Part shown: positions 1,065-60,612 of the stretch, piece after piece
How positions within the stretch are numbered: the stretch's first letter is position 1
Layout of the letters: every line of letters starts with the position of its first letter
NCBI RefSeq assembly: GCF_012295575.1
Contig: NZ_CP051180.1
Span: forward strand, 2,356,001-2,420,000
Length of the DNA: 64,000 nucleotides
Origin: Ferrimonas lipolytica
GTDB taxonomy: Bacteria; Pseudomonadota; Gammaproteobacteria; Enterobacterales; Shewanellaceae
Direction of reading: 5' to 3'
Position numbers and translations under genes: made by a program
Notes under the pieces: generated by a model
The model's database searches: none
Seen by the model: only the letters and a program-made list of their open reading frames with translations
What the model was told of the DNA's origin: nothing

Positions 1065-2528
1065 ATGAGCTCAAACATCAATCGCGGAGAGTTTCTAGGC
1101 CATCCTAAAGGCCTGTTCCTCCTGTTCACCACTGAGTTGTGGGAACGCTTCTCTTACTACGCTATGCGTGCCATTTTGGTATTGTACCTCGTAGACCAAG
1201 TTACCACTCAAGGCGGCCACGGTTTAGGCTGGAGCCAAGCAGACGCTCTTTCCTTATACGGTACCTTTACTGGTTTAGTATACATTACCCCACTTATCGG
1301 TGGTTGGTTGGCAGATAACTACTTAGGCCAACGTAAAGCCATCTATATTGGTGGTTTCTTAATGGCGGCTGGCCAATTCTTGTTGGGTACCCCACATGCG
1401 TGGATCCCTGGCATGGAAACCGCGGTATTTTACTTTGGTTTGGGCGTACTGATTTTAGGTAACGGTCTGTTTAAACCAAACATCTCTACCATGGTTGGCG
1501 ACTTATACGAAGAAGGCGATCACCGTCGTGACGGTGCATTCACCATCTTCTACATGGGTATCAACGTAGGTGCTTTCCTTTCTGGTATTGTGGTTGGCAA
1601 CGTTGTTGCTGCTTACGGCGGTAGCTTCCAAGCTGGCTTCGTTTGTGCTGGTATCGGTATGTTGCTGTCTCTGGTTATTCAGTTCATGTTTGCGCAAAAG
1701 CTGTTGGGCGACATCGGTACCGTGCCTGCAGCTAAACTAGACAAACTGCAGCAAACCGAAGTTCGTAATGAACCTCTAACAGCAGTTGAGCGTGATCGCA
1801 TTAAAGTGATCATGGTGCTTGGTCTGTTTACTATCGTTTTCTGGGCTGGCTTCGAGCAAGCTGGTGGCCTGATGAACTTGTTCACCAACAACTTCACCGA
1901 CCGCATGCTGGGTGATTGGGAAATCCCAACCACTTACTTCCAGTCTCTAAACGCCTTCTTCATCGTTGTATTTGCACCAGTAATCGCTTCCCTTTGGGTT
2001 CGTATGGGTGCTAACGAGCCTAACTCTCCAGTTAAATTCGCATTGGGCCTTATCCTGTTGGGTATCGGTTTCATCTTTATGATGGGTGCGGTAATGGAGA
2101 TGGGCGGTGACGCTAACGCTAAATCATCCATGTGGTGGTTAGTTGGTGCATACTTCTTCCACACCATGGGTGAGCTGTGCTTGTCTCCTATCGGTCTGTC
2201 GATGGTAACCAAACTTGCTCCGCTGCGTATGGCATCCTTAATGATGGGCGCATGGTTCGGTTTCGTTGCTATTGCAAACAAGGTTGGTGGTTTCGTTGGT
2301 TCCTTCATCGGTCACGACGGTTCTGCAGAAGAGCAATTAGCTAACGCTATGTCTATCTTCTCCGGCATTTTCATCACTGCTGTTGTTTCTGGCATCATCC
2401 TGTACTTCATGTCCGACAAGCTTGTTGACTGGATGCACGGCGCTGAAGATGGCCATGATAAAAATGAAGCTCAAGCATTAGAGCAAGAAGTTGCTGTAAC
2501 TGCTGACCATGAAGGCATGAAGCACTAA
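1065..2528 (+). CDS. POT/PTR2-family proton-dependent oligopeptide transporter
   Basis: 487 residues, the usual size for bacterial Dtp/POT transporters, which import di- and tripeptides with protons across the inner membrane. The signature ExxER is present early (ELWERFSYY, E24-R28), followed by about 12-14 hydrophobic segments. The PTR2 signature GNGLFKPNISTMVGDLY and the FYMGINVGAF segment are both visible. The C-terminus is a short charged tail. A rho-independent terminator follows at once, so it is likely monocistronic. The paralogue (DtpA, B or D) cannot be told from sequence alone. Confidence 0.93.
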   Translation: MSSNINRGEFLGHPKGLFLLFTTELWERFSYYAMRAILVLYLVDQVTTQGGHGLGWSQADALSLYGTFTGLVYITPLIGGWLADNYLGQRKAIYIGGFLMAAGQFLLGTPHAWIPGMETAVFYFGLGVLILGNGLFKPNISTMVGDLYEEGDHRRDGAFTIFYMGINVGAFLSGIVVGNVVAAYGGSFQAGFVCAGIGMLLSLVIQFMFAQKLLGDIGTVPAAKLDKLQQTEVRNEPLTAVERDRIKVIMVLGLFTIVFWAGFEQAGGLMNLFTNNFTDRMLGDWEIPTTYFQSLNAFFIVVFAPVIASLWVRMGANEPNSPVKFALGLILLGIGFIFMMGAVMEMGGDANAKSSMWWLVGAYFFHTMGELCLSPIGLSMVTKLAPLRMASLMMGAWFGFVAIANKVGGFVGSFIGHDGSAEEQLANAMSIFSGIFITAVVSGIILYFMSDKLVDWMHGAEDGHDKNEAQALEQEVAVTADHEGMKH

Positions 2529-2627: not shown

Positions 2628-3495
2628 GGTCGCACGCGTGCGCCCCTACGGGAACCATCCGCCTCAAACGGCCAGCCCCAACCTGCTACCCCACACTTGT
2701 AGGGGCACTCATGAGTGACCTTAGCTGACGGCAACTGTTACAGATAAATAAACGGTCGGACATGTCCGCCCCTACGGGCAATATTCACCTCAAACGGCCA
2801 GCCCCAACATGCTCCCCGAACTTGTAGGGGCACTCGTGAGTGACCGCACCGAAGTGACACCTTATGAAACGGTCGGACATGTCCGTCCCTACGGGTAATA
2901 TTCACCTCAAACTGCCAACCCCAACATGTTCCCCGAACTTGTAGGGGCACTCATGAGTGACCTTAGCTGACGGCAGCTGTTACAGATAAATTAACGGTCG
3001 GACATGTCCGCCCCTACGGGTAATATTCACCTCAAACTGCCAGCCCCAAACGTGTTATCCCACACTTGTAGGGGCACTCATGAGTGACCGCGCCGAAGTT
3101 ACGCCTTATGAAACAGTCGGACATGTCCGCCCCTACGGGCATCATCCGCCTCAAACGGCCAGCCCAAACGTGTTATCCAAGCCTGTAGGGGCACTCATGA
3201 GTGACCTTAGCTGACGGCAACTGTTACAGATAAATAAACGGTCGGACGCGTCCGCCCCTACGGGTAATATTCACCTCAAACGGCCAACCCCAACATGTTC
3301 CCCGAACTTGTAGGGGCACTCGTGAGTGACCGCACCGAAGTGACACCTTATGAAACGGTCGGACATGTCCGTCCCTACGGGTAATATTCACCTCAAACTG
3401 CCAACCCCAACATGTTCCCCGAACTTGTAGGGGCACTCATGAGTGACCGCACCGAAGTGACACCTTATGAAACGGTCGGACATGTCCGCCCCTAC
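2628..3495. repeat. REP-like palindrome array 1 (a/b families, about 117-127 bp period)
   Basis: Alternating inverted 22-nt elements. The a type reads GGTCGGAC, two bases, GTCCGCCCCTAC. The b type reads GTAGGGGCACTC, two bases, GAGTGACC. Eight a-type starts (2628, 2754, ... 3474) and seven b-type starts (2699, 2824, 2941, 3068, 3185, 3310, 3427) are present. The first a-type unit is a variant with the stem CGCAC/GTGCG. Two conserved spacers alternate between them. The b elements at 2699/2824/2941 recur exactly 486 bp later at 3185/3310/3427, so a higher-order duplication built this array. Open frames through it are by-products of periods divisible by three. Confidence 0.95.
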
Positions 3496-3646
3496 GGGCA
3501 TCATCCGCCTTGAATAAGAGGCGCGAAATCCATTACACGGATGCGTATATTGCAAAGCCTACTAAATAGGCAGTTGCTGCCCTTCCCCTTGCTCCTGAGC
3601 TAATCAAGGTAAATACTGAGTTCACAGCACTTGCAAGGAATCAATT

Positions 3647-4261
3647 GTGGACAAGAATCTCACCTTAAACGAAACCCGCGTTATCGGCTGCCTGATGGAG
3701 AAAGAGTCAACCACACCGGATCTCTATCCATTAACCCTCAACGCACTAAAGGGCGCCTGCAATCAAAAAAGCAATCGCGAACCGGTATTGTCTCTATCAG
3801 ATACCGAAGTACAGCAAACCGTTGCCCAACTGTTAGGTAAAAGATTACTCCATGAAGAGGGCAGCGCTCGCACCAGCAAATATAAGCACCGCTTCTGCAA
3901 TACTCCATTTGGTGGTCTGCAATTTACTCAGCAAGAGCGCGCCATCGTTTGTGTATTACTGTTACGTGGGCCACAAACCCCCGGTGAATTACGCTCTCGT
4001 ACTAATCGGCTATGTGAATTTTCCGATGTAAGCGAAACCGAATCAGCCTTACAACAACTGGTTGAAAAGGAGTTGGTAGTACAACTTCCGCGAGAAGCAG
4101 GAAAGCGTGAGAGTCGTTATGCTCACTTATTTAGTGGCGAAGTTGAGATAGTCACTAGTGCAAATGTTGCTTCAAACGATAAAACCAGAATTCTTGAATT
4201 GGAAAAAGAGAATATGATTCTTAAGGCTGAGGTTGAACGGTTAAAACAGATGTTATCGTAA
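3647..4261 (+). CDS. yceH: YceH family protein (UPF0502/DUF480)
   Basis: 204 residues starting at GTG 3647 with AAGGA a few bases upstream. LNETRVIGCLMEKESTTPDLYP at the N-terminus (given here in two parts: LNETRVIGCLMEKE and STTPDLYP) and the segments NALKGACNQKSNREPV and LLRGPQTPGELRSRT are hallmarks of the YceH family. The family consists of two winged-helix domains; its molecular function is not established. A C-terminal coiled coil (ILELEKENMILKAEVERLKQ) follows the two domains, as in E. coli YceH. The gene lies between repeat array 1 and the convergent adenosyltransferase gene. Confidence 0.93.
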   Translation: MDKNLTLNETRVIGCLMEKESTTPDLYPLTLNALKGACNQKSNREPVLSLSDTEVQQTVAQLLGKRLLHEEGSARTSKYKHRFCNTPFGGLQFTQQERAIVCVLLLRGPQTPGELRSRTNRLCEFSDVSETESALQQLVEKELVVQLPREAGKRESRYAHLFSGEVEIVTSANVASNDKTRILELEKENMILKAEVERLKQMLS

Positions 4262-4385
4262 GCACAACGCTTTGCCGTTACTTGAGCACGCTCGAAAACA
4301 AGCAAAGTGCCTTTCGACGGTTTGGCGTTATCAAGCCTAGGGCCTACATGTACGCCGCTACATTGAGTAATGCTTACTATGTAAC

Positions 4386-4408
4386 ATAGGGGGCACTCAA
4401 GAGTGGTC
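4386..4408 (+). repeat. Solitary degenerate b-type REP element
   Basis: ATAGGGGGCACTCAAGAGTGGTC matches the b-type element (GTAGGGGCACTC, two bases, GAGTGACC) with a few changes, and the CACTC/GAGTG stem is intact. It sits between the convergent genes yceH and the adenosyltransferase and shows that single copies exist outside the arrays. Confidence 0.7.
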
Positions 4409-4446
4409 ATTGCGACACTCGATTGTATTCGTGCCCCATTGTTAAT

Positions 4447-5043
4447 CTACCAATCCAAACCCTTTTGGGCTTTTACGCCTGCTTCGAACGCATGTTTAAT
4501 TGGTTGGATTTCAGATACGGTGTCGGCCAAATCGGTCAAGCGACGATGACAGGCGCGTCCAGTAATAACTACATGTTGATTCTTGGGCCGATTTTGAATG
4601 GCTGCGACTACCTCATCAATATCGAGATAGTGATAGCTAACCATATAAGTGATTTCATCGAGTAGCACCATATCAACCGTAGGATCCGCCAGCGCCAATT
4701 TAATCTGTTGCCATACAGCTTGTGCAGCAGCAGTATCACCGTCACGATCTTGAGTATTCCAAGTGAAGCCCGTTTTCATTATGTAAAACGGCACACCCAA
4801 ATTCTCTAGTATATTGCGTTCACCACACTCCCACTGGCCTTTAATAAATTGCGCTACCTGACAATTAAATCCATGACCAACTGCACGCAGCACCGTCCCA
4901 AAACCCGCTGTCGATTTACCTTTGCCATTACCAGTTAACACCAGCAACACGCCTTTATCGATCTGAGCTTGCTCTATTTTCCCATCAACAGCTTGCTTCA
5001 ATGTTTGTTGTCGCTGCTTATGTTTTTCGTTATCTCGTTCCAT
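4447..5043 (-). CDS. btuR: Cob(I)yrinic acid a,c-diamide adenosyltransferase (BtuR/CobO type)
   Basis: 198 residues. It transfers the 5'-deoxyadenosyl group of ATP to the cobalt of corrinoids, giving adenosylcobalamin, in the cytoplasm. The P-loop GNGKGKST is at residues 38-45. GHGFNCQVAQFIKGQW, the aromatic segment near FTWNTQD, the LLDEITYM strand and the VVITGRACHRRLTDLAD motif are typical of CobA/BtuR. I chose ATG 5043 because GGAGC lies eight bases upstream; a longer frame back to 5121 has no such site. No cobalamin riboswitch was recognised upstream. It lies near the B12-dependent metH, a functional link but not an operon. Confidence 0.94.
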   Translation of the reverse strand: MERDNEKHKQRQQTLKQAVDGKIEQAQIDKGVLLVLTGNGKGKSTAGFGTVLRAVGHGFNCQVAQFIKGQWECGERNILENLGVPFYIMKTGFTWNTQDRDGDTAAAQAVWQQIKLALADPTVDMVLLDEITYMVSYHYLDIDEVVAAIQNRPKNQHVVITGRACHRRLTDLADTVSEIQPIKHAFEAGVKAQKGLDW

Positions 5044-5187
5044 CGAAAGCGCTCCAGTAATTTTACTTTTTGCTGTGCATTTTAAGATCGTAAGTTGCCT
5101 CAAGCCGTTACTTGCCGCCACTCCTACAAAAAATAATGACCATAGCGTAACTCCAGCTGCGTTTGATTGTTTAAAAGGAGATATAGC

Positions 5188-5700
5188 ATGCCCAACTACA
5201 AACGATTACGGCAACCCGGAGGAACCTATTTCTTTACTCTGGCATTAGCAGAACGAAACAACAATGACCTTTTGGTTCGACATATTGCGATTTTGCGTCG
5301 GGCGATCTCTGAGATTAAAGCAAAGCACCCTTTTCGAACCCATGCGGTCGTTGTATTGCCAGAACATGTTCATTTGATGATTACTCTTCCTCAGGGAGAT
5401 TCCGACTTTTTTACTCGCATACGCCTGATAAAATTTTCGTTTACCAAACTTGTCAATCGTTCTACCGGTCAGGCTCAATCTGTATGGCAGAAAGGCTATT
5501 GGGAGCATCTAATTCGAGACCAACAGGATTTCGATAATCACTTCAATTACATCCACTTCAACCCGGTTAAACACGGCTATGTCGATAAAACCAAAGATTG
5601 GCCTCATTCCACCTTCCATATTTATGTTGAACGCGGCGTGTTAGATGCTGAGTGGGGACAAAAGAATGAAGTGGAAATATCCGGCGCAGAATACGACTAA
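5188..5700 (+). CDS. REP-associated tyrosine transposase (RAYT, Y1/HUH family)
   Basis: 170 residues. RAYTs are single-strand DNA endonucleases related to IS200/IS605 TnpA that bind hairpins with a GTAG (or GGAG) foot and are thought to spread REP palindromes. The histidine pair is in LPEHVHLMITLP (H60, H62) and the catalytic tyrosine in HFNYIHFNPVKHG (Y121). The N-terminal RLRQPGGTYFFTL and WQKGYWEHLIRD are also family signatures. The start at ATG 5188 follows a strong AAAAGGAG; the open frame extends to a TTG at 5167, which I judge unlikely. The gene looks intact. A hairpin abuts the stop codon and REP array 2 begins 36 bp later, with GTAG as the element foot. Which repeats it acts on is inference. 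Confidence 0.93.
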   Translation: MPNYKRLRQPGGTYFFTLALAERNNNDLLVRHIAILRRAISEIKAKHPFRTHAVVVLPEHVHLMITLPQGDSDFFTRIRLIKFSFTKLVNRSTGQAQSVWQKGYWEHLIRDQQDFDNHFNYIHFNPVKHGYVDKTKDWPHSTFHIYVERGVLDAEWGQKNEVEISGAEYD

Positions 5701-5730
5701 CATACACAACCGCTGAAGGGTTTGTGTATG
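5701..5730 (+). terminator. Hairpin abutting the RAYT stop codon
   Basis: CATACACAA at 5701-5709 pairs with TTGTGTATG at 5722-5730 around a 12-base loop, beginning at the base after the stop codon. There is no T-run, so it may be a 3' end structure or an element boundary rather than an ordinary terminator. Confidence 0.55.
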
Positions 5731-5735
5731 AATAC

Positions 5736-6462
5736 GGTCGGACATGTCCGCCCCTACGGGTAATATTCACCTCAAACTGCCAACCCAAACATGTTACCCC
5801 ACACTTGTAGGGGCACTCGTGAGTGACCGCACCGAAGTTACGCCTTATGAAACGGTCGGACATGTCCGCCCCTACGGGCAACATTCACCTCAAACTGCCA
5901 GCCCAAACATGTTACCCCACACTTGTAGGGGCACTCGTGAGTGACCGCACCGAAGTGACACCTTATCAAACGGTCGGACATGTCCGCCCCTACGGGTAAT
6001 ATTCGCCTCAAACTGCCAGCCCAAACGTGTTATCCAAGCCTGTAGGGGCACTCATGAGTGACCGCACCGAAGTGACGCCTTATGAAACGGTCGGACATGT
6101 CCGCCCCTACGGGCAATATTAGCCTCAAACTGCCAGCCCCAAACGTGTATCCCACACTTGTAGGGGCACTCGTGAGTGACCGCACCGAAGTGACGCCTTA
6201 TGAAACGGTCGGACATGTCCGCCCCTACGGGAAATATTAGCCTCAAACTGCCAACCCAAATGTGTTGCCTAAGCCTGTAGGGGCACTCGTGAGTGACCGC
6301 ACCGAAGTGACACCTTATCAAACGGTCGGACATGTCCGCCCCTACGGGCAACATTCGCCTCAAACTGCCAGCCCAAACGTGTTGCCTAAGCCTGTAGGGG
6401 CACTCGTGAGTGACCGCACCGAAGTGACACCTTATCAAACGGTCGGACATGTCCGCCCCTAC
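5736..6462. repeat. REP-like palindrome array 2 (a/b families, 117-118 bp period)
   Basis: Seven a-type elements (first at 5736, last at 6441) alternate with six b-type elements (5807, 5925, 6042, 6160, 6277, 6394). Spacings are 117 or 118 bp. Spacer 1 resembles CACCTCAAACTGCCAGCCC and spacer 2 resembles GCACCGAAGTGACACCTTAT, the same as in array 1. Most a units are CGGAC-AT-GTCCG. The array fills the gap between the RAYT gene and metH. Confidence 0.95.
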
Positions 6463-6561
6463 GACAGTACCTTCCCTCAGCCAATAGATACTATCGATTC
6501 ATAACTGATTTTAGATCTGCCCTAATAACAGGCTTGGCATCATAACCGTTCTCAGGCACGA

Positions 6562-6571
6562 TAGACGTCTA
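6562..6571. promoter_or_regulatory. Candidate MetJ operator (met box) upstream of metH
   Basis: TAGACGTCTA contains AGACGTCT, the exact 8-bp MetJ box consensus, 41 bp before the metH start. MetJ normally binds two or more adjacent boxes; the neighbouring octamers match only weakly, so this is a candidate. The role (repression by S-adenosylmethionine-bound MetJ) is inferred. Confidence 0.45.
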
Positions 6572-6611
6572 TATGGATAAAAGGCCAATTGGGTTTATAA
6601 GGATCGGTAGT

Positions 6612-9600
6612 ATGACAACAACCCTCAAGCAATCACTGGCAGAGCGCATTCTCATCTTAGATGGCGCTATGGGTACCATGATCCAGCGCCATAAGCTGGA
6701 AGAAGAAGACTTTCGCGGTGAACGCTTTGCCGATTGGCCATCACTACTGAAAGGCAATAACGACCTGCTATCGCTAACGCAGCCACAGATCATTGCTCAG
6801 ATCCATCGTGACTACCTGCTTGCTGGTGCGGATATCATCGAAACCAACACCTTCAATAGCACCACCGTCGCCATGGCTGACTACCAGATGGAAGCGCTAT
6901 CGAAAGAGATTAACTTCGAATCTGCCAAGCTCGCCCGTCAAGTGGCAGACGAAGTAGCCCAAGAGACCGGTATCCCCCGTTATGTTGCCGGTACGTTAGG
7001 GCCTACTAACCGTACCTGTTCAATTAGCCCAGACGTTAATGATCCCGGTTTTCGTAATATCGCCTTTGATATCCTGGTAGAAGCCTATACCGAATCTACC
7101 AATGCCCTGCTTAATGGCGGCGCCGATATCATTATGGTTGAAACCGTGTTTGATACCCTTAATGCTAAGGCCGCGCTCTATGCCATTGATAGTGTGTTTG
7201 AGCAACGAGGCCAGAAATGGCCGGTGATGATCTCCGGCACCATCACCGATAGCTCTGGCCGCACTCTTACCGGTCAAACCACCGAAGCGTTCTACAACTC
7301 ACTGCGTCATATCGACCCAATTAGTTTTGGCCTGAACTGCGCTTTAGGCCCTAAAGAATTGGTCCCGTATATGGCTGAACTCAATCGCATCAGCGAATGC
7401 CCTATATCTGCGCATCCAAATGCCGGCTTACCCAATGAGTTTGGCGAGTATGACGAAACTCCAGCGCAAATGGCGCAGATAATCGGCCAGTGGGCAGCAG
7501 ATGGTTGGCTTAATATTGTCGGTGGTTGTTGTGGTACCACACCAGAGCACATCAGTGCGATAGCTGCAGTAGTAAGTAAACACCAACCTCGGCAAGCTCC
7601 TAAACTGCCACATCACACCCGCTTAGCGGGGCTTGAACCTTGTACTATCGAGGCCAACTCATTGTTCGTCAACGTGGGTGAACGCACCAACGTTACTGGT
7701 TCCGCGCGCTTTCTTCGCTTGATTAAGGAGGGCGATTACGAAACCGCGCTTGAGGTAGCTAAGCAGCAAGTTGAAAACGGCGCGCAGATCATCGATATCA
7801 ATATGGATGAAGGGATGCTGGACTCAGAAGCGGCAATGGTGCGCTTCTTAAACCTGATTGCCGCAGAGCCAGATATCTCGAAAGTGCCGATCATGATCGA
7901 CTCTTCAAAGTGGTCAGTGATTGAGGCTGGCCTGAAATGCATCCAAGGCAAGGGGATCGTTAACTCAATCTCCCTTAAGGAGGGTGAACAGGCCTTTATC
8001 GAGCAAGGCAAGTTAGTCCGCCGCTACGGCGCTGCTGCTATTGTTATGGCGTTTGACGAACAGGGCCAAGCCGATACTTACCAGCGCAAGGTTGAGATCT
8101 GTACTCGCGCCTATCGGGTGCTTACCGAAAAAGTCGGTTTAGCCCCAGAAGACATCATCTTCGATCCCAACATCTTTGCCATTGCCACTGGTATTGATGA
8201 GCACAACAATTACGCCGTCGACTTTATCGAGGCCTGTAAAACCATTCGCGACACCCTCCCCCATGCACGTCTTTCCGGCGGTGTATCCAACGTATCGTTC
8301 TCTTTTCGGGGCAATAACCCGGTGCGGGAAGCGATTCACGCGGTATTCCTCTACCACGCCATTAAAAATGGTCTCACCATGGGCATTGTTAACGCTGGCC
8401 AGCTGGCGATATTCGATGATATTCCCAAACAATTGTTAGAGCGGGTTGAGGATGTGGTACTCAATCGCCGCGACGATGCAACAGAGCGGCTGCTGGCTAT
8501 CGCTAATGATTACCGCGGTGAAGGTAAACAACAGGCGGATCCTCGTGATGCCCAGTGGCGTAGTTGGCCAGTAAACAAACGCTTAGAACATGCCTTGGTG
8601 AAGGGTATAACCGATTTTATCGAAGAGGATACTGAAGCGGCTCGATTGAAAGCCAATATTCCCCTCGAGGTAATTGAAGGGCCGTTAATGGATGGCATGA
8701 ACGTGGTTGGCGATCTGTTCGGCGATGGCCGCATGTTCCTACCACAGGTTGTAAAATCCGCCCGGGTGATGAAGCGGGCAGTTGCCTACCTCAACCCGTA
8801 CATTGAAGCATCCAAAGTGAAAGGGCAAAGCAACGGTAAAGTGTTGATGGCAACTGTAAAGGGGGATGTCCACGACATTGGTAAAAACATTGTTGGCGTG
8901 GTTTTACAGTGTAACGGTTACGAAGTTATCGATCTTGGTGTAATGGTGCCGGTAGAGAAGTTGATAGAGGTAGCCATTGCTGAGCAAGTCGATGTAATAG
9001 GCATGTCTGGTCTAATTACCCCGTCGCTGGACGAGATGATCCACAACGTAAAAGCGTATCAAAAGGCTGGCTTAACCATTCCGTGTATTATTGGTGGTGC
9101 CACCACCTCGAAAATCCACACCGCGGTGAAGATCCACGAGCATTATCCTCATGGGGCTATCTATGTGCCAGATGCATCTAGAACCGTGCCAGTTATCGCC
9201 AAACTTTGTGGCCCAGATAAGCAGGCCTTTGTGGAGGAGCGTTACCGCGAATACGCCGCTCTCAAATTGAAACGCGAAAGCCAAGGTCGACGTAAGCAGC
9301 TAATCAGTCTCGACGCCGCTAGGGCTAATCGTAATCAGATTGATTGGCCAAACTATGTTCCTAAGATCCCAAACAGCTTAGGGGTTCATACCCTCGAAGA
9401 TTACCCAATCACCGATCTGCTGGAGCGCATCGATTGGACCCCATTCTTCCGCAGCTGGGGCTTGCACGGTAAGTATCCGCAGATTTTCGACAACACCACC
9501 GTAGGTGGCGAAGCCCGTGAGCTATTCGATAACGCACAGATCATGCTGACACAGATCATCGAACACAAATGGCTTAAGGCAGCGGCGGTGTTTGGCCTGT

Positions 9601-10283
9601 TCCCTGCCAACACCCTCGACAATCATGATGATATTGCTATCTACAGCGATGAAAGCCGCCAGCAAAGTCTATTAACGCTACAAATGCTGCGGCAACAAGT
9701 TGAGCGCATCGATAACGACAACTTTGCCCTGTCTGACTTTGTCGCGCCGCAATCTTCAGGCATAAATGACTACATGGGCGCCTTTGCGGTAACTGCAGGG
9801 ATCGGTATTGATGAACATGTACAACGATTTGAGCAAGATGGCGACGATTATAGTGCCATCATGCTTAAGGCTATTGCAGATAGATTAGCGGAAGCCTTTG
9901 CCGAACGTTTGCACGAACGAGTACGCAAAGAGTTTTGGGGCTATGACGCTGACGAGAGCCTTGATAACGACGCTTTAATCAAAGAACGTTACAAAGGTAT
10001 TCGCCCCGCCCCTGGTTACGCAGCCTGCCCAGATCACACCGAGAAAGGACTGCTGTGGCAACTATTAGAACCAACCAAACGTATCGGTCTTAATATCACC
10101 GAGAACTTCGCCATGTACCCGACAGCGGCAGTATCCGGTTGGTACTTTGCCCATCCACAATCACGCTATTTTGGTGTTACCGATATCGGTAAGGATCAGG
10201 TTGAGGATTACGCCAAACGCAAAGGGATGAGTATCGAGCAAACAGAGAAGTGGTTAGCGCCTATTTTAGGCTACGACGCATAG
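6612..10283 (+). CDS. metH: Cobalamin-dependent methionine synthase
   Basis: 1223 residues, close to E. coli MetH (1227). It transfers the methyl group of 5-methyltetrahydrofolate through cobalamin to homocysteine. All modules are present in order: the homocysteine/zinc barrel ([27 protein letters not shown]), the folate barrel ([13 protein letters not shown]), the four-helix cap, the B12-binding domain with [11 protein letters not shown] (cobalt ligand His at about residue 754), and the C-terminal reactivation domain with [13 protein letters not shown] chose ATG 6612 because AAGGA lies eight bases upstream; an in-frame ATG at 6573 has no clear site. The nearby adenosyltransferase gene makes a different cobalamin form. 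No riboswitch was seen in the leader. Confidence 0.97.
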
Positions 10284-10302
10284 CTAGCCTTATCTAAACT
10301 GC

Positions 10303-10474
10303 GGTCGGATACGTATGGGTAGGGGCACTCGTGAGTGACCTTAGCTAACGGCAGGTGTTACCGCTGCATTACCGGTCGGACACGTCCGACCCTACGAGTA
10401 GGGGCACTCGTGAGTGACCTTAGCTGACGGCAGCTGTTACAGAGAAATTATCGGTCGGACGCGTCCGCCCCTAC
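10303..10474. repeat. REP-like palindrome array 3 (short, 79-bp unit)
   Basis: b elements at 10319 and 10398 are exactly 79 bp apart, and a elements lie at 10374 and 10453. A degenerate a-like unit (GGTCGGATACGTATGGG) begins at 10303. The spacer TTAGCTAACGGCAGGTGTTA is that of array 4, so this is the same 79-bp unit in two copies, downstream of metH. Confidence 0.92.
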
Positions 10475-10502
10475 GGGCTATACCAATGAAGAGCCCCAAA
10501 CG

Positions 10503-10530
10503 AAAAAACCACCGCATGCGGTGGTTTTTC
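10503..10530. terminator. Bidirectional rho-independent terminator
   Basis: AAAAAACCACCGCATGCGGTGGTTTTT is a near-perfect GC-rich hairpin with T-runs on both strands. It lies between convergent metH and the DUF3010 gene, 18 bp from the latter's stop codon, and can serve both. Confidence 0.9.
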
Positions 10531-10547
10531 ATTACTGAGGCAAGCGC

Positions 10548-10991
10548 TTATGCGTCGTCTTCAGTGTAGGTTTCACGCTGACAGTAGGCGTAAGCCGCAT
10601 CAAATGCTGCCTTCTGGAACTTCTTCAATCCAAGTTCATCGAAGCTCGCCTGTACTGGGTTACGCTTGATCCACTCTTTAACTTCAGTCGGGTGTACAAC
10701 GGCAGCGTTAACACCAACCAACTGCATCGCCGCTTCCATCTTAAAACTACCACCACTGCCGGCAAACTTACCTTTTTGTGGGCGGTCGATAATCACAATC
10801 TGATCCACATGGTAATCTTCCATCAACTTACCAAAGGCAAAATGGAACTTACGGATAGCCTCAGTGCTCTCTAACTTCGGCATCGGCATTGATAGTTGGC
10901 GCATTGATGGCACCGCAAACAAGCCATCTTCCATACCCAGCAGACAAAATACCGCTTCCCCACCTTTGATCTCTACGCCAATTACTCTCAT
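10548..10991 (-). CDS. DUF3010 family protein
   Basis: 147 residues starting MRVIGVEIKGGEAVFCLLG and ending in an acidic TYTEDDA tail. The central IVIIDRPQKGKFAGSGGSFKM (IVIIDRPQKGK then FAGSGGSFKM) and the VHPTEVKEWIKRN segment are features I associate with DUF3010 proteins of Vibrio and Shewanella. The N-terminal pattern of short strands with D/E residues suggests an RNase H-like fold, but no function is established. It stands alone, convergent with metH and flanked by repeat arrays. Confidence 0.85.
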   Translation of the reverse strand: MRVIGVEIKGGEAVFCLLGMEDGLFAVPSMRQLSMPMPKLESTEAIRKFHFAFGKLMEDYHVDQIVIIDRPQKGKFAGSGGSFKMEAAMQLVGVNAAVVHPTEVKEWIKRNPVQASFDELGLKKFQKAAFDAAYAYCQRETYTEDDA

Positions 10992-11205
10992 GCCAAACCT
11001 TTCTGATAATTCATAACAATGGCGCTATTGTAGCGTGAATCAACAAACGACACCTTGGCTTTCAATGAACTTCTGCACAAAACCATCACTTTCGAGTGTA
11101 TTTGTGTGTAATTCAGGCGATTAGATCAAATGTTGGCTGTAGCCGCCACCGATATTTATACAATATCAACCACCAGCACTACTGCCACGTTACCGTTACA
11201 GTAAC

Positions 11206-12540
11206 GGTCGGACATGTCCGCCCCTACGAGTAATATTCACCTCAAACAACAAGCTGCAACATGTTCCCCGAACTTGTAGGGGCACTCGTGAGTGACCTTA
11301 GCTAACGGCAGGTGTTACCGCTGCATTACCGGTCGGACGCGTCCGCCCCTACGAGTAGGGGCACTCATGAGTGACCTTAGCTAATGGCAAATGTTACCGC
11401 TGCATTATCGGTCGGACAGGTCCGCCCCTACGAGTAGGGGCACTCATGAGCGACCTTTGGCAACAGCAGGTGTTACCGCTGCATTATCGGTCGGACAGGT
11501 CCGCCCCTACGAGTAGGGGCACTCGTGAGTGGCCTTAGGCAACGGCAGGTGTTGCCGCTGCATTAACGGTCAGACATGTCCGCCCCTACGAGTAGGGGCA
11601 CTCGTGAGTGACCTTTGGCAACGGCAGGTGTTACCGCTACATTATCGGTCGGACATGTCCGCCCCTACGGGTAGGGGCACTCGTGAGTGACCTTTGGCAA
11701 CGGCAGGTGTTGCCGCTGCATTAACGGTCGGACGCGTCCGCCCCTACGAGCAGGGTCACTCATGAGTGACCTTTGGCAACAGCAGGTGTTGCCGCTGCAT
11801 TAACGGTCGGACACGTCCGCCCCTACGAGTAGGGGCACTCGTGAGTGGCCTTAGGCAACGGCAGGTGTTGCCGCTGCATTAACGGTCAGACATGTCCGCC
11901 CCTACGGGTAGGGGCACTCGTGAGTGACCTTAGCTAATGGCAAATGTTACCGCTGCATTAACGGTCGGACACGTCCGCCCCTACGGGTAGGGGCACTCGA
12001 GAGTGACCTTAGCTAACGGCAGGTGTTACCGCTACATTAACGGTCGGACGCGTCCGCCCCTACGGGTAGGGGCACTCGAGAGTGACCTTAGCTAATGGCA
12101 AATGTTACCGCTGCATTATCGGTCGGACAGGTCCGCCCCTACGGGTAGGGGCACTCGAGAGTGACCTTAGCTAATGGCAAATGTTACCGCTGCATTATCG
12201 GTCGGACAGGTCCGCCCCTACGAGTAGGGGCACTCGTGAGTGACCTTAGCTAACGGCAGGTGTTACCGCTGCATTAACGGTCTGACACGTCCGCCCCTAC
12301 GAGTAGGGGCACTCGTGAATGACCTTAGCTAACGGCAGGTGTTACCGCTACATTAACGGTCGGACAGGTCCGCCCCTACGGGTAGGGGCACTCATGAGTG
12401 ACCGTAGCTAATGGCAGATGTTGCCACTACATTATTGGTCGGACACGTCCGCCCCTACGAGTAGGGGCACTCGTGAGTGACCGTAGCTAATGGCAGGTGT
12501 TGCCGCTAAATTAACGGTCGGACTCGTCCGCCCCTACGGG
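11206..12540. repeat. REP-like palindrome array 4 (16 units of exactly 79 bp)
   Basis: GTAGGGG starts recur at 11276, 11355, 11434 and so on every 79 bp to 12461, sixteen times. Each unit has a b element, a spacer of the type TTAGCTAACGGCAGGTGTTA-CCGCTGCATTA, and an a element. The next start would be 12540, where the ugd stop codon interrupts the period. An extra a element at 11206 is joined to the first unit by the 117-bp-type spacer, so the array is a hybrid of the two unit kinds. The middle two bases of the a stem vary among AT, GC, AC, AG and TC; b centres include AT, GT and GA. 79 is not divisible by three, so no coding role is possible. Confidence 0.96.
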
Positions 12541-46260: not shown

Positions 46261-47072
46261 GGTCGGACACGTCCGCCCCTACAAGATGCTCAACGTAGGG
46301 GCCATCATGATGGACCTTCGCCAGTGTCCGCCCCTACAAAATGCTCAACGTAGGAGCCATCGTGATGGACCTTCGCCAGTGTCCGCCCAACAAGATACTC
46401 AACGTAGGGGCCATCGTGATGGACCTTCGCCAGTGGTAAACCCATCGACAAGCACAAAACCACCGCGCCTCTTGGCATAAACACCCTTCGGTCGGACACA
46501 TCCGCCCCAACAAAATGCCCAACGTAGGGGCCATCATGATGGACCTTCGCCAGTGTCCGCCCCTACAAGATGTTCAACGTAGGGGCCATCGTGATGGACC
46601 TTCGCCAGTGTCCGCCCCTACAAGATGCTCAACGTAGGGGCCATCGTGATGGACCTTCGCCAGTGTCCGCCCCTACAAGATGCTCAACGTAGGGGCCATC
46701 ATGATGGACCTTCGCCAGTGTCCGCCCCTACAAAATGCTCAACGTAGGAGCCATCGTGATGGACCTTAGCCAGTGTCCGCCCCGACAAGATGCTCAACGT
46801 AGGAGCCATCGTGATGGACCTTCGCCAGTGTCCGCCCCGACAAGATGTTCAACGTAGGGTCCATCATGATGGACCTTAGCCAGTGTCCGCCCCTACAAGA
46901 TGTTCAACGTAGGGGCCATCGCGATGGACCTTCGCCAGTGTCCGCCCCTACAAGATGCTCAACGTAGGGGCCATCATGATGGACCTTCGCCAGTAGTAAC
47001 CCCATCGACAAGCACAAAACCACCGCGCCTCTTGGCATAAACACCGCGTCGGTCGGACACGTCCGCCCCTAC
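46261..47072. repeat. REP-like palindrome array 5 (c family, exact 55-bp period) between flagellin and flaG
   Basis: Twelve c-type elements (GTAGGGGCCATC, two bases, GATGGACC) start at 46295, 46350, 46404, 46524 and then every 55 bp to 46964. Each 55-bp unit also has a truncated a element that keeps only GTGTCCGCCCCTAC. Complete a elements occur only at 46261, about 46491 and 47051. Two of these are preceded by the same 60-bp non-repeat segment (CATCGACAAGCACAAAACC...), at about 46440 and 47000. Confidence 0.95.
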
Positions 47073-47081
47073 GGTGATACC

Positions 47082-47115
47082 AAAAAAAACGGTAGAGCCT
47101 CTCGACTCTACCGTT
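47082..47115 (-). terminator. Terminator of the flagellin gene
   Basis: AACGGTAGAG pairs with CTCTACCGTT around an eight-base loop; the minus strand ends in a T8 run. It lies 52 bp after the flagellin stop and next to array 5. Confidence 0.92.
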
Positions 47116-47166
47116 CTATCGGCCGCTACAATATAAAGCTTTAGCCTAAATTTTAACTTACCGACT

Positions 47167-48324
47167 TTACAGCAGTGATAGTGCCGCTGAAGGCAATTGG
47201 TTTGCCTGCGCTAACATAGCTGAAGAGGATTGTGACAGTACCTGCTGCTTCGCTAGCTCTGTCGATTCTTTGGCGAAGTCGACATCTTGAATACGGGAGC
47301 GTGCATCAGACACGTTGGTTTGGATGTTGCTCAAGTTATTGATGGTGTGTTCCATCCGGTTTTGAGTCGCACCCAGCTCCGAACGCTGTGAATCAATTTG
47401 AGAAATTGCTTCATCAATCATAGTGATAGCAGATTGCGCGCCTTGAGTAGTACTAACGTCAATAGTATCAACACTAGAGCTATCATTTGCTCCTAACGTT
47501 GGTGCTGCCGTAACGCTAGTTCCTGCAAATACTAAATTGGAATCCGTAGTGCCTGGGTCATCACTATTTTCAATTTGCCCCGACAACACAACATTACCAG
47601 ATTCATCGACACCGGCAGAGACACCACTATCACCCAAAGCTTTATTCATTGCAGCTGCAATACCACCTGCATCTTCGGCATCAGATAAATCTACTGAGAC
47701 TGTACTGCCCGCCGAACCATCGCCGCTGGTTAATGTAAATGTCATATCGTCAGCTTTAATCACTGCGTCGATGTTAGCTACTGCTACTGAGGTACCAGAA
47801 ACACTGCGCCCCTGAGCCAGATGGTCTGCACCCACATCATTCATAGAGAGTTCAATTGTCTCGTTTGCATTAGAGCCAATTTGGAAACTCTGTGTACCGT
47901 ATGAACCATCGAGTAAACTTTGGCCACCAAACGAAGTAGTGTCAGAGATTCGAGTCAGCTCATCTTGCAAAGAGGTGATCTCTTCTTGAATTGCAGTACG
48001 GTCGTCGGCAGAGTTTGAGCCGTTAGCAGACTGTACTGACAGGTCACGCATCCGCTGCAGAATATCAGTTGATTCCTGCATTGCACCTTCGGCTGTTTGC
48101 GCCATGGAGATACCATCGTTAGCGTTACGCATCGCTACGTCCATACCACTAATCTGCGAAGAAAGTCGGTTAGAGATCTGCAAGCCAGCCGCATCATCTT
48201 TGGCAGAGTTGATACGCAAACCGGAAGACAAACGCTCCATTGAAGTCTGGGTAGCGCTGTTAGCCGAATTTACCGCATTTTGGGACGACATCGCTGTTAC
48301 GTTGGAGTTTACTGAGATACTCAT
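47167..48324 (-). CDS. flaA: Flagellin
   Basis: 385 residues, with typical D0/D1 N-terminal ([20 protein letters not shown], 20 residues; [18 protein letters not shown]) and C-terminal ends ([37 protein letters not shown]). The variable centre (about 170-290) is acidic with few aromatic residues. TAAGGA lies eight bases before the ATG. It is the only flagellin in the window, monocistronic, with a sigma-28 promoter and its own terminator, and repeat arrays on both sides. Confidence 0.97.
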
Positions 48325-48392
48325 ATTGATTATTCCTTAGGTTGTTATCCATCGGGACCAACTAACGATGCTGCATCCCCGGTACAATCAAT

Positions 48393-48419
48393 ATTTCGGC
48401 GCCACGACCATTTCCTTTA
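48393..48419 (-). promoter_or_regulatory. Sigma-28 (FliA) promoter of flagellin
   Basis: Minus strand: TAAA, 15 bases, GCCGAAAT, an excellent match to TAAA-N15-GCCGATAA. The predicted start is about 60 bases upstream of the flagellin ATG. Confidence 0.85.
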
Positions 48420-48542
48420 GTGCTTTTTTTAACTTTTTGTTCTGACTGCCTTTAACGGCACAGAAAAAGCCACTTACAATCAACAACTTAACCTTTGCGC
48501 AACATTGCAAAAAATTAAATAACTTAATGACTTTAGAGCGTT

Positions 48543-49491
48543 CTATCACGATGGTTCCGACGTGAACATCAACATCGTAGGGGCAGACGTGTCTGACCGT
48601 TGCCGAGCGCAAATCCAGCTGAGGTGAAGGTTCAAGCTGAGGTGAATACCCAAACTGTGGCGAATACCCAAGCTGTGTCGAAGGTCCATCACGATGGCCC
48701 CTACGCAACACCGTAGGGGCAGACGTGTCTGACCGTTGCCGAGCGCAAACCTAGCTGAGGTGAAGGCCCAAGCTGAGGTGAAGGTTCAATCGCGGTGAAT
48801 ACCCAAGCTGTGGCGAAGGTCCATCACGATGGCCCCTACGCAACATCGTAGGGGCAGACGTGTCTGACCGTTGCAGAGAACAAACCCAGCTGCGGTGAAG
48901 GTCCAAGCTGTGGCGAATACCCAAGCTGCGGCAAAGGTCCAAGCTGTGGCGAATACCCAAGCTGAGGCGAAGGTCCAAGCTGTGGCGAATACCCAAGCTG
49001 TGGCGAAGGTCCATCACGATGGCCCCTACGCAACACCGTAGGGGCAGACGTGTCTGACCGTTGCCGAGCGCAAATCCAGCTGAGGTGAAGGTTCAAGCTG
49101 AGGTGAATACCCAAACTGTGGCGAATACCCAAGCTGTGTCGAAGGTCCATCACGATGGCCCCTACGCAACACCGTAGGAGCAGACGTGTCTGACCGTTGC
49201 CGAGAACAAACCCAGCTGTGGCGAATACCCAAGCTGTGGCGAATACCCAAGCTGCGGCAAAGGTCCAAGCTGTGGCGAATACCCAAGCTGAGGCGAAGGT
49301 CCAAGCTGTGGCGAATACCCAAGCTGTGGCGAAGGTCCATCACGATGGCCCCTACGCAACACCGTAGGGGCAGACGTGTCTGACCGTTGCCGAGCGCAAA
49401 CCTAGCTGAGGTGAAGGTTCAAGCTGCGATGAAGGTTCAAGCTGAGGCGAATACCCAAGCTGTGGCGAAGGTCCATCACGATGGCCCCTAC
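48543..49491. repeat. REP-like palindrome array 6 (c/d families with 18-bp tandem repeats) upstream of flagellin
   Basis: Six d elements (GTAGGGGCAGAC, two bases, GTCTGACC) start at 48577, 48713, 48848, 49038, 49174 and 49364. Each is tail to tail with an inverted c element (GGTCCATCACGATGGCCCCTAC-type, the first degenerate at 48543). The stretches between pairs are made of 18-bp repeats alternating CAAGCTGTGGCGAATACC and CAAGCTGTGGCGAAGGTC, the last running into the GGTCC of the c element. Spacings of 135-136 and 190 bp reflect the number of 18-bp units. Open frames reading six-residue periods here are not genes. Confidence 0.95.
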
Positions 49492-60590: not shown

Positions 60591-60612
60591 GGTCACACAT
60601 GTGTGCCCCTAC
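60591..60612 (-). repeat. Solitary REP element of a further family (e)
   Basis: On the minus strand it reads GTAGGGG, CACAC, AT, GTGTG, ACC. The stem differs from all array families but keeps full pairing. A partner GTAGGGGCCATG on the plus strand at 60623 has a degraded palindrome. The pair lies between the convergent trmO and acyltransferase genes. Confidence 0.8.

Follow-up and report, generated by a model that had tools for sequence, protein, structure and literature searches.

The hairpin elements described here lie in clusters in a stretch of 64,000 nucleotides of the Ferrimonas lipolytica genome (contig NZ_CP051180.1, positions 2,356,001 to 2,420,000, hereafter the window) and at further places of the same genome. 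The reading we propose, to which we give a probability of about 0.68, is that they are repetitive extragenic palindromes (REPs), GTAG-tagged and mostly arranged as REPIN-like inverted pairs, of the single TnpAREP-like REP-associated tyrosine transposase (RAYT) encoded in the window. The assignment to a REP/RAYT system is well supported, and one enzyme probably served all the stem types, judging from the sequences. The sequences show which parts are largely fixed, namely the foot (GTAG), the lower stem (GG/CC), the G and A that face each other, the C-G pair that follows and the C-NN-G apex; the pairs of the upper stem vary, for the most part with compensation on the other arm.

Abundance and distribution of the elements

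The exact plan, GTAGGGGC-NNN-C-NN-G-NNN-GACC, occurs 153 times in the 4.13-Mb genome, 75 times on the plus strand and 78 times on the minus strand, and 80 of these copies (41 plus, 39 minus) fall in the window, the rest being all contained in the further stretches examined; the same pattern read backwards has no exact match in the whole genome. When up to two mismatches are tolerated, 204 matches are found genome-wide versus 17 for the reversed control, and 193 of the 204 lie inside the 110,508 bases examined, where the reversed control gives a single match. These controls rule out chance palindromes. The 11 matches found elsewhere represent, at this degree of decay, no excess of dispersed near copies over the 17 control matches of the genome. 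The set of 192 near copies used below leaves out, as due to chance, the match at window position 4340; the scan of the window listed 95 sites, of which 4340 and 46858 (the other-strand shadow of a neighbour) were not counted as elements. A covariance-model search, whose model was built on 32 sequences all having complementary triplets, scored 150 of 1210 candidates.

Of the 15 places that hold elements, 12 have between 4 and 33 copies, two have a pair and one has a single copy. As in GTAG REPs, the copies are many (153 exact, 192 near) and intergenic, the arrays of the window, for which reading frames were compared, falling between the long frames.

Eight stem types and one fold

The initial annotation, made from the letters of the window, had proposed a 22-nt plan with six inner triplets, fitted by every unit, in which the opposite arm changes with the triplet between constant flanks. 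The plan and the six triplets are found where the annotation put them, but the triplets number eight, GCT and AAT occurring only outside the window, and not every unit conforms: among the 192 copies, 176 have exactly complementary triplets (GGA 48, ACT 44, CAT 18, AGA 17, GCT 16, GCA 15, ACA 9 and AAT 9), 6 pair through a G-T wobble and 10 are mismatched. The joint change of the two arms is thus borne out genome-wide, the copies without strict complementarity being a minority of 16, with 11 triplet combinations; 143 of the 153 exact copies have complementary triplets. The flanks GTAGGGG and ACC, supposed to be invariant, are so only in large part, since the GTAG foot is kept in 172 of the 192 copies and GG/CC in 175; the facing G and A are found in 182, and the C...G flanking the two central bases in 187. 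In the GGA array at genome positions 4110647-4111558, the foot reads GTCGTGG instead of GTAGGGG in 9 of 18 plus-strand copies, interleaved with intact ones, which is possibly a set of foot-changed copies.

When the 58 distinct sequences of the 192 are considered, 95.3% of 406 cells are paired versus a shuffled mean of 76.4%, and 80 cells are changed on both sides versus 29.2 in the shuffled sets, none of 500 shuffles being as high; slid controls give 21-34.5% of paired cells. Two of the five measures show no excess over the shuffles: doubly changed pairs (3 versus 2.9) and further pair types (9 versus 9.0). Kinship among the sequences inflates these pair counts, and the proper unit is the stem type (n = 8); the early proposal that covariation be counted per type and not per copy holds, with eight types in place of six. 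All eight are joined by nine single-base-pair steps. On inspection by eye of these 16 copies and of the arrays, a two-arm departure from an array's own type was seen only in the edge GCA copy of the array that begins at 2628. The third pair of the triplet is constrained: it is A-T or T-A in all eight types, and is associated with the 3' flank and, for the most part, with the partner in the dimer.

The single-stranded DNA of one representative per type folds in all eight cases into the identical structure ....((.((((....)))).)), at -3.4 to -5.9 kcal/mol, that is a free GTAG, the GG/CC lower stem, a G·A mismatch, a 4-bp upper stem and a 4-nt loop. The predicted pairing of the outer GG and CC around a G-A mismatch is thereby recovered for every type. 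The z-scores of the individual copies are modest (-1.7 to -3.1), and the shape predicted in common for the eight types weighs more than the folding energies.

Opposed elements carry different stems

Opposed neighbours form 118 pairs, 63 with GTAG outside and 55 with GTAG inside, and in none of the 118 is the same stem found twice. Neighbours in the same direction (n = 58) are of the same type in 45 cases and of different types in 13, all 13 involving one-arm variants. These counts, which repeat within arrays, were made on 191 elements, one odd CGA element being dropped. Pairs with GTAG outside are found in 12 of the 15 places. The opposed pairs connect GGA, ACT, GCA, CAT, AGA, AAT and GCT; ACA stands outside this linked set, being confined to an array of its own type and to an isolated copy.

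To test the pairing, 10 contexts were chosen, the arrays at 2628-12537 being merged and the GCA edge pair added. A triplet ending in A (xyA) is paired with one ending in T (xyT) in 9 of the 10 contexts (random matching, p ~0.03), the exception being the GCT/AAT array at genome positions 2729646-2731010. Furthermore, the commonest base after ACC is G in 13 of the 14 array-by-type entries of the xyA types, and T in 9, G in 4 and A in 1 of the 14 entries of the xyT types; the contrast by first base is significant in an exact test (p 0.0013, or 0.0019 with related arrays merged). A version of this test based on the commonest 4-mer (p 3.4e-4) was set aside for the first-base count.

Among 145 spacers of at least 20 nt compared by blastn (E <= 1e-3), similarity between places is confined to the four window arrays at 2628-12537; the spacers being unrelated elsewhere, the hairpin is what those loci have in common. 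When whole pairs are folded, the plus strand of the pair at genome position 2832604 gives one long hairpin and its minus strand mainly separate hairpins, and both strands of the window pair at 10319 give mainly separate hairpins. The 123-nt spacer of the pair at genome positions 3912511-3912677 seems, by eye, to contain several decayed tandem GGA elements.

The pattern scan of the window yields six arrays and a lone element. The first array (2628-3495, 15 elements) has GCA on the minus strand at its left edge, followed by alternating ACT (+) and GGA (-); the second (5736-6462) has 13 elements, GGA (-) and ACT (+); 4 elements, ACT (+) and GGA (-), lie at 10319-10474, and the 33 elements at 11206-12537 consist chiefly of a 79-bp unit, ACT (+), 33 nt, GGA (-), 2 nt. 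Farther on, 15 elements at 46261-47072 comprise 12 CAT (+), mostly in 55-bp units, and 3 GGA (-), and 12 elements at 48577-49491 alternate between AGA (+) and CAT (-); the lone ACA element is at 60591-60612 on the minus strand. A decayed ACT-type element (foot ATAG, an extra G, tail GTC), aligned by eye, is present on the plus strand at 4386-4408, between a DUF480 gene and btuR. The flagellin gene at 47167-48324 (minus strand; Pfam) has arrays of different stems on both sides (46261-49491), one of them upstream of the gene.

The RAYT and its locus

The genome contains one Y1_Tnp match only, at window positions 5188-5700 on the plus strand (Pfam Y1_Tnp, E 3e-5). Profile and sequence matches identify this 170-aa protein as a TnpAREP-like RAYT: it matches NCBIfam NF047646, REP_Tyr_transpos, with an E of 1.3e-52, and its sole match in the PDB at E <= 0.1 is 4er8, the E. 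coli TnpAREP (E 7e-40). The two histidines of a PEHVH motif and a tyrosine are kept at the places of 4er8 residues 59, 61 and 115, which we take to be the catalytic residues. In group 2 RAYTs, the core is followed by some 20 C-terminal residues (Corneloup et al. 2021, PMC8266576); the window protein has a tail, ending in SGAEYD, and is at most a candidate for this group.

The gene is thus a real RAYT beside the second array, as had been proposed, the distance from its stop to the first REP downstream being 35 bp and not 36. The neighbouring gene upstream is btuR, and about 780 bp separate the RAYT from the closest REP remnant on that side. Between btuR and metH, the window genome has the RAYT and the 13-element array. 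In another genome of the genus (G013), DUF480 (yceH), btuR and metH are neighbours, with about 215 bp from btuR to metH and no RAYT match there; at the btuR loci of the other genus genomes, none of 13 has a RAYT match within the stretches examined, metH being in reach in 6. In a further genome of the family (G002), a gene for a POT-family transporter adjoins the RAYT (L109, 5535-7784) and is 77% identical to window positions 1065-2528; in the window, the transporter gene and the RAYT are about 2.7 kb apart. The RAYT and the transporter are possibly an old shared neighbourhood of G002 and the window.

RAYTs and hairpins in relatives

In a survey of 152 genomes of the family, including that of the window, 48 have a RAYT match at E <= 0.001, and only the window genome, G013 and G002 have matches better than 1e-40. 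The exact plan is confined to the window genome and absent from the 151 others, so that abundance of the elements in relatives devoid of RAYT, which would have told against the initial annotation, is not seen. In an order-level sample of 394 genomes, 5 including the window genome have the plan, the four others with one copy each; in none of these four stray copies are the triplets complementary, and stray matches turn up for the reversed control as well.

The expectation that genomes of this RAYT clade carry the same elements failed: many relatives have a GTAG hairpin of their own instead. Indeed, two or more GTAG hairpins with 9 nt in common lie no farther than 1 kb from the gene at 22 of 35 RAYT loci in other genomes, versus 3 of 29 control stretches (2.5 kb, 3 kb upstream); the 13 remaining loci lack such a set. 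The REP pattern of G013 has 42 copies and is restricted to it among 14 genus genomes; its RAYT is flanked by two hairpin types in opposed orientation. The locus L073 has two co-changed hairpin versions within about 700 bp of one RAYT, which indicates that the phenomenon is not confined to the window genome. The REP pattern of G002 has 39 copies in that genome.

Weighing of the explanations

Several observations weigh against the proposed REP/RAYT reading. The genome-wide spread usual for most GTAG families is replaced here by clustering at 15 places, and elements so placed, instead of scattered singles, fit local amplification better than frequent transposition. The REPtron layout, with inverted REPs on both sides of the RAYT, is not found, a close REP being present on one side only. 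At the position equivalent to E. coli K82, a reported bulge contact, the window RAYT has F, and the tree gives no resolved placement for this protein. The lower stem of 2 bp is much shorter than in the beta-proteobacterial relatives. Heterotypic pairing taken by itself is not significant in the 10 contexts (random matching, p ~0.20). The element columns are less variable than the spacers in three of six arrays (uncorrected p 0.013, 0.038 and 0.042), none of the six passes a correction for six tests, and three show no difference. Finally, genome G003 has 40 REPs of the G002 type and no RAYT match at E <= 0.001; REPs can exist without a detectable enzyme, and the strict coupling of RAYT and elements that had been expected is not observed.

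A two-ended unit with an end code, served by one RAYT, is a tentative possibility. One end would be marked by the upper-stem pair A-T and a G as 3' flank, the other by the pair T-A and a T as 3' flank; the difference between ends would drive the drift of the stems and the enzyme would hold the shape. The divergence of the stems would be kept because identical inverted ends would pair together and not fold as two hairpins.

An origin of the arrays as hairpin minisatellites seems unlikely. They would be formed by slippage or unequal exchange, their arms would be corrected by template switching during replication, and the RAYT would have seeded them or been a bystander. The restriction to 15 places, 12 with at least 4 copies, without an excess of near copies elsewhere, would agree with such an origin, as would the element columns that are not less variable than spacers in three of the six arrays and the connection of the eight types by single-base-pair steps. 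The correction would however be incomplete, given the 16 of 192 triplets that are not strictly complementary, and the foot, the lower stem and the ACC tail, for which correction has no need, are largely fixed across unrelated spacers; moreover, the genes of many related RAYTs are accompanied by GTAG hairpins of their own.

It is more improbable still that several RAYTs, one per stem type, arrived at different times and that all but one were lost. The case of G003, with REPs and no RAYT match, would fit this, and repeat-specific transposases are reported by Di Nocera et al. (2013, PMC3733652) for species with several GTAG families. Against this, the foot, the lower stem, the mismatch, the tail and the apex are common to all types, within a pair the ends differ in type, and the genome search gives a single Y1_Tnp match, although heavily decayed remnants could escape it. 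A role as double-stranded, operator-like binding sites of a dimeric protein, or as RNA hairpins acting at gene ends, is very improbable: the location of the window arrays between long reading frames and the inverted repeat formed by the inner 12 nt would suit it, but the two central bases are mostly not self-complementary (171 sites: GT 63, AC 30, AA 10, GA 7, CT 5 and TC 1, with AT 44 and GC 11), so that a symmetric protein-binding site was rejected, and neither role agrees with the asymmetric flanks or with runs of as many as 33 copies.

Proposed mechanism and significance

In the REP/RAYT reading that we prefer, recognition by the enzyme would rest on GTAG as a single strand, on the lower stem and on the unpaired position, with the upper stem as a structural prop. 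In E. coli, GTAG is essential, the unpaired position matters more than its sequence, the role of the upper stem and loop is non-specific and structural, and TnpA acts on REPs of the y, z1 and z2 types, according to Corneloup et al. (PMC8266576). If the upper stem is only a prop, matched changes would be tolerated as long as pairing is kept, some of them via a G-T wobble; since each such pair combines unlike stems, a single enzyme would need to accept the two. The moving unit would be a REP pair with GTAG outside, usually with one xyA and one xyT end, and these units would then be multiplied locally into tandem arrays. By analogy, the pattern seen here may be the trace expected of an enzyme like E. 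coli TnpA.

Complementary stem changes within REP families are already known, and the present family is an unusually clear and rich instance of them. In Stenotrophomonas, modified REPs remain palindromic, 'suggesting selection for complementary mutations' (Nunvar et al. 2010, PMC2817692), and subfamilies that differ by complementary replacements in the stem are described for most GTAG families (PMC3733652). What is new is an arrayed family, found in a single genome only, with eight stem alleles and opposed neighbours that always differ (118 of 118); novelty may lie in the end-specific pairing of stems. GTAGGGGC together with 'REP sequences' has no match in the open-access library searched, and no paper among the matches listed there for Ferrimonas, REP and RAYT mentions Ferrimonas.

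The family amounts to a mutational scan, made by nature, of what is probably a RAYT substrate: within one genome that has a single detectable enzyme, eight stems occur with a foot and a mismatch that are largely fixed. It predicts that the foot, the lower stem and the mismatch are read by the enzyme and the upper stem is not. It also bears on the open question why REP dimers so often consist of two different elements, heterodimers predominating in most GTAG families without obvious explanation according to PMC3733652. The same paper states that large REP clusters mostly repeat singletons or dimers plus flanking DNA, and names one clustered exception to the genome-wide spread.

Comparison with known systems

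Among the closest known systems is the E. coli pair of TnpAREP and its REPs (y, z1 and z2; PMC8266576), which have the same GTAG foot, lower stem, unpaired position and upper stem, and in which one RAYT is active on several stem types. Unlike the E. coli REPs, the elements described here have 22 nt, a 2-bp lower stem and a G-A where E. coli has an AA/GC bulge, and they comprise eight stem types with copies concentrated at 15 places. The GTAG-1 and GTAG-2 REPs of Pseudomonas, Thauera and Shewanella, as described in the text of PMC3733652, share with them a short stem (of 5 bp in Thauera) set off from GTAG by unpaired bases, a conserved 3-nt tail, clustering in some species, and subfamilies with complementary stem changes; in contrast to these REPs, the tail here can pair back to the linker (GG/CC).

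Several hairpins of beta-proteobacterial RAYTs read GTAGGGYGCAAT...ATTGCRCC and share the GTAGGG start and the CC end with the window elements. At the homologous RAYTs of G002 and G013, a GTAG hairpin is likewise repeated, with sequences that differ from those of the window: GTAGCGTGGGCT...AGCCCACG in the former and GTAGGTCACGTTA... in the latter. These hairpins of relatives have longer lower stems than the window elements. Finally, REPINs and BIMEs are likewise built of inverted REP pairs and show tandem repetition of pairs plus flanking DNA. Unlike them, all 118 opposed pairs found here consist of two different stems, mostly an xyA with an xyT.

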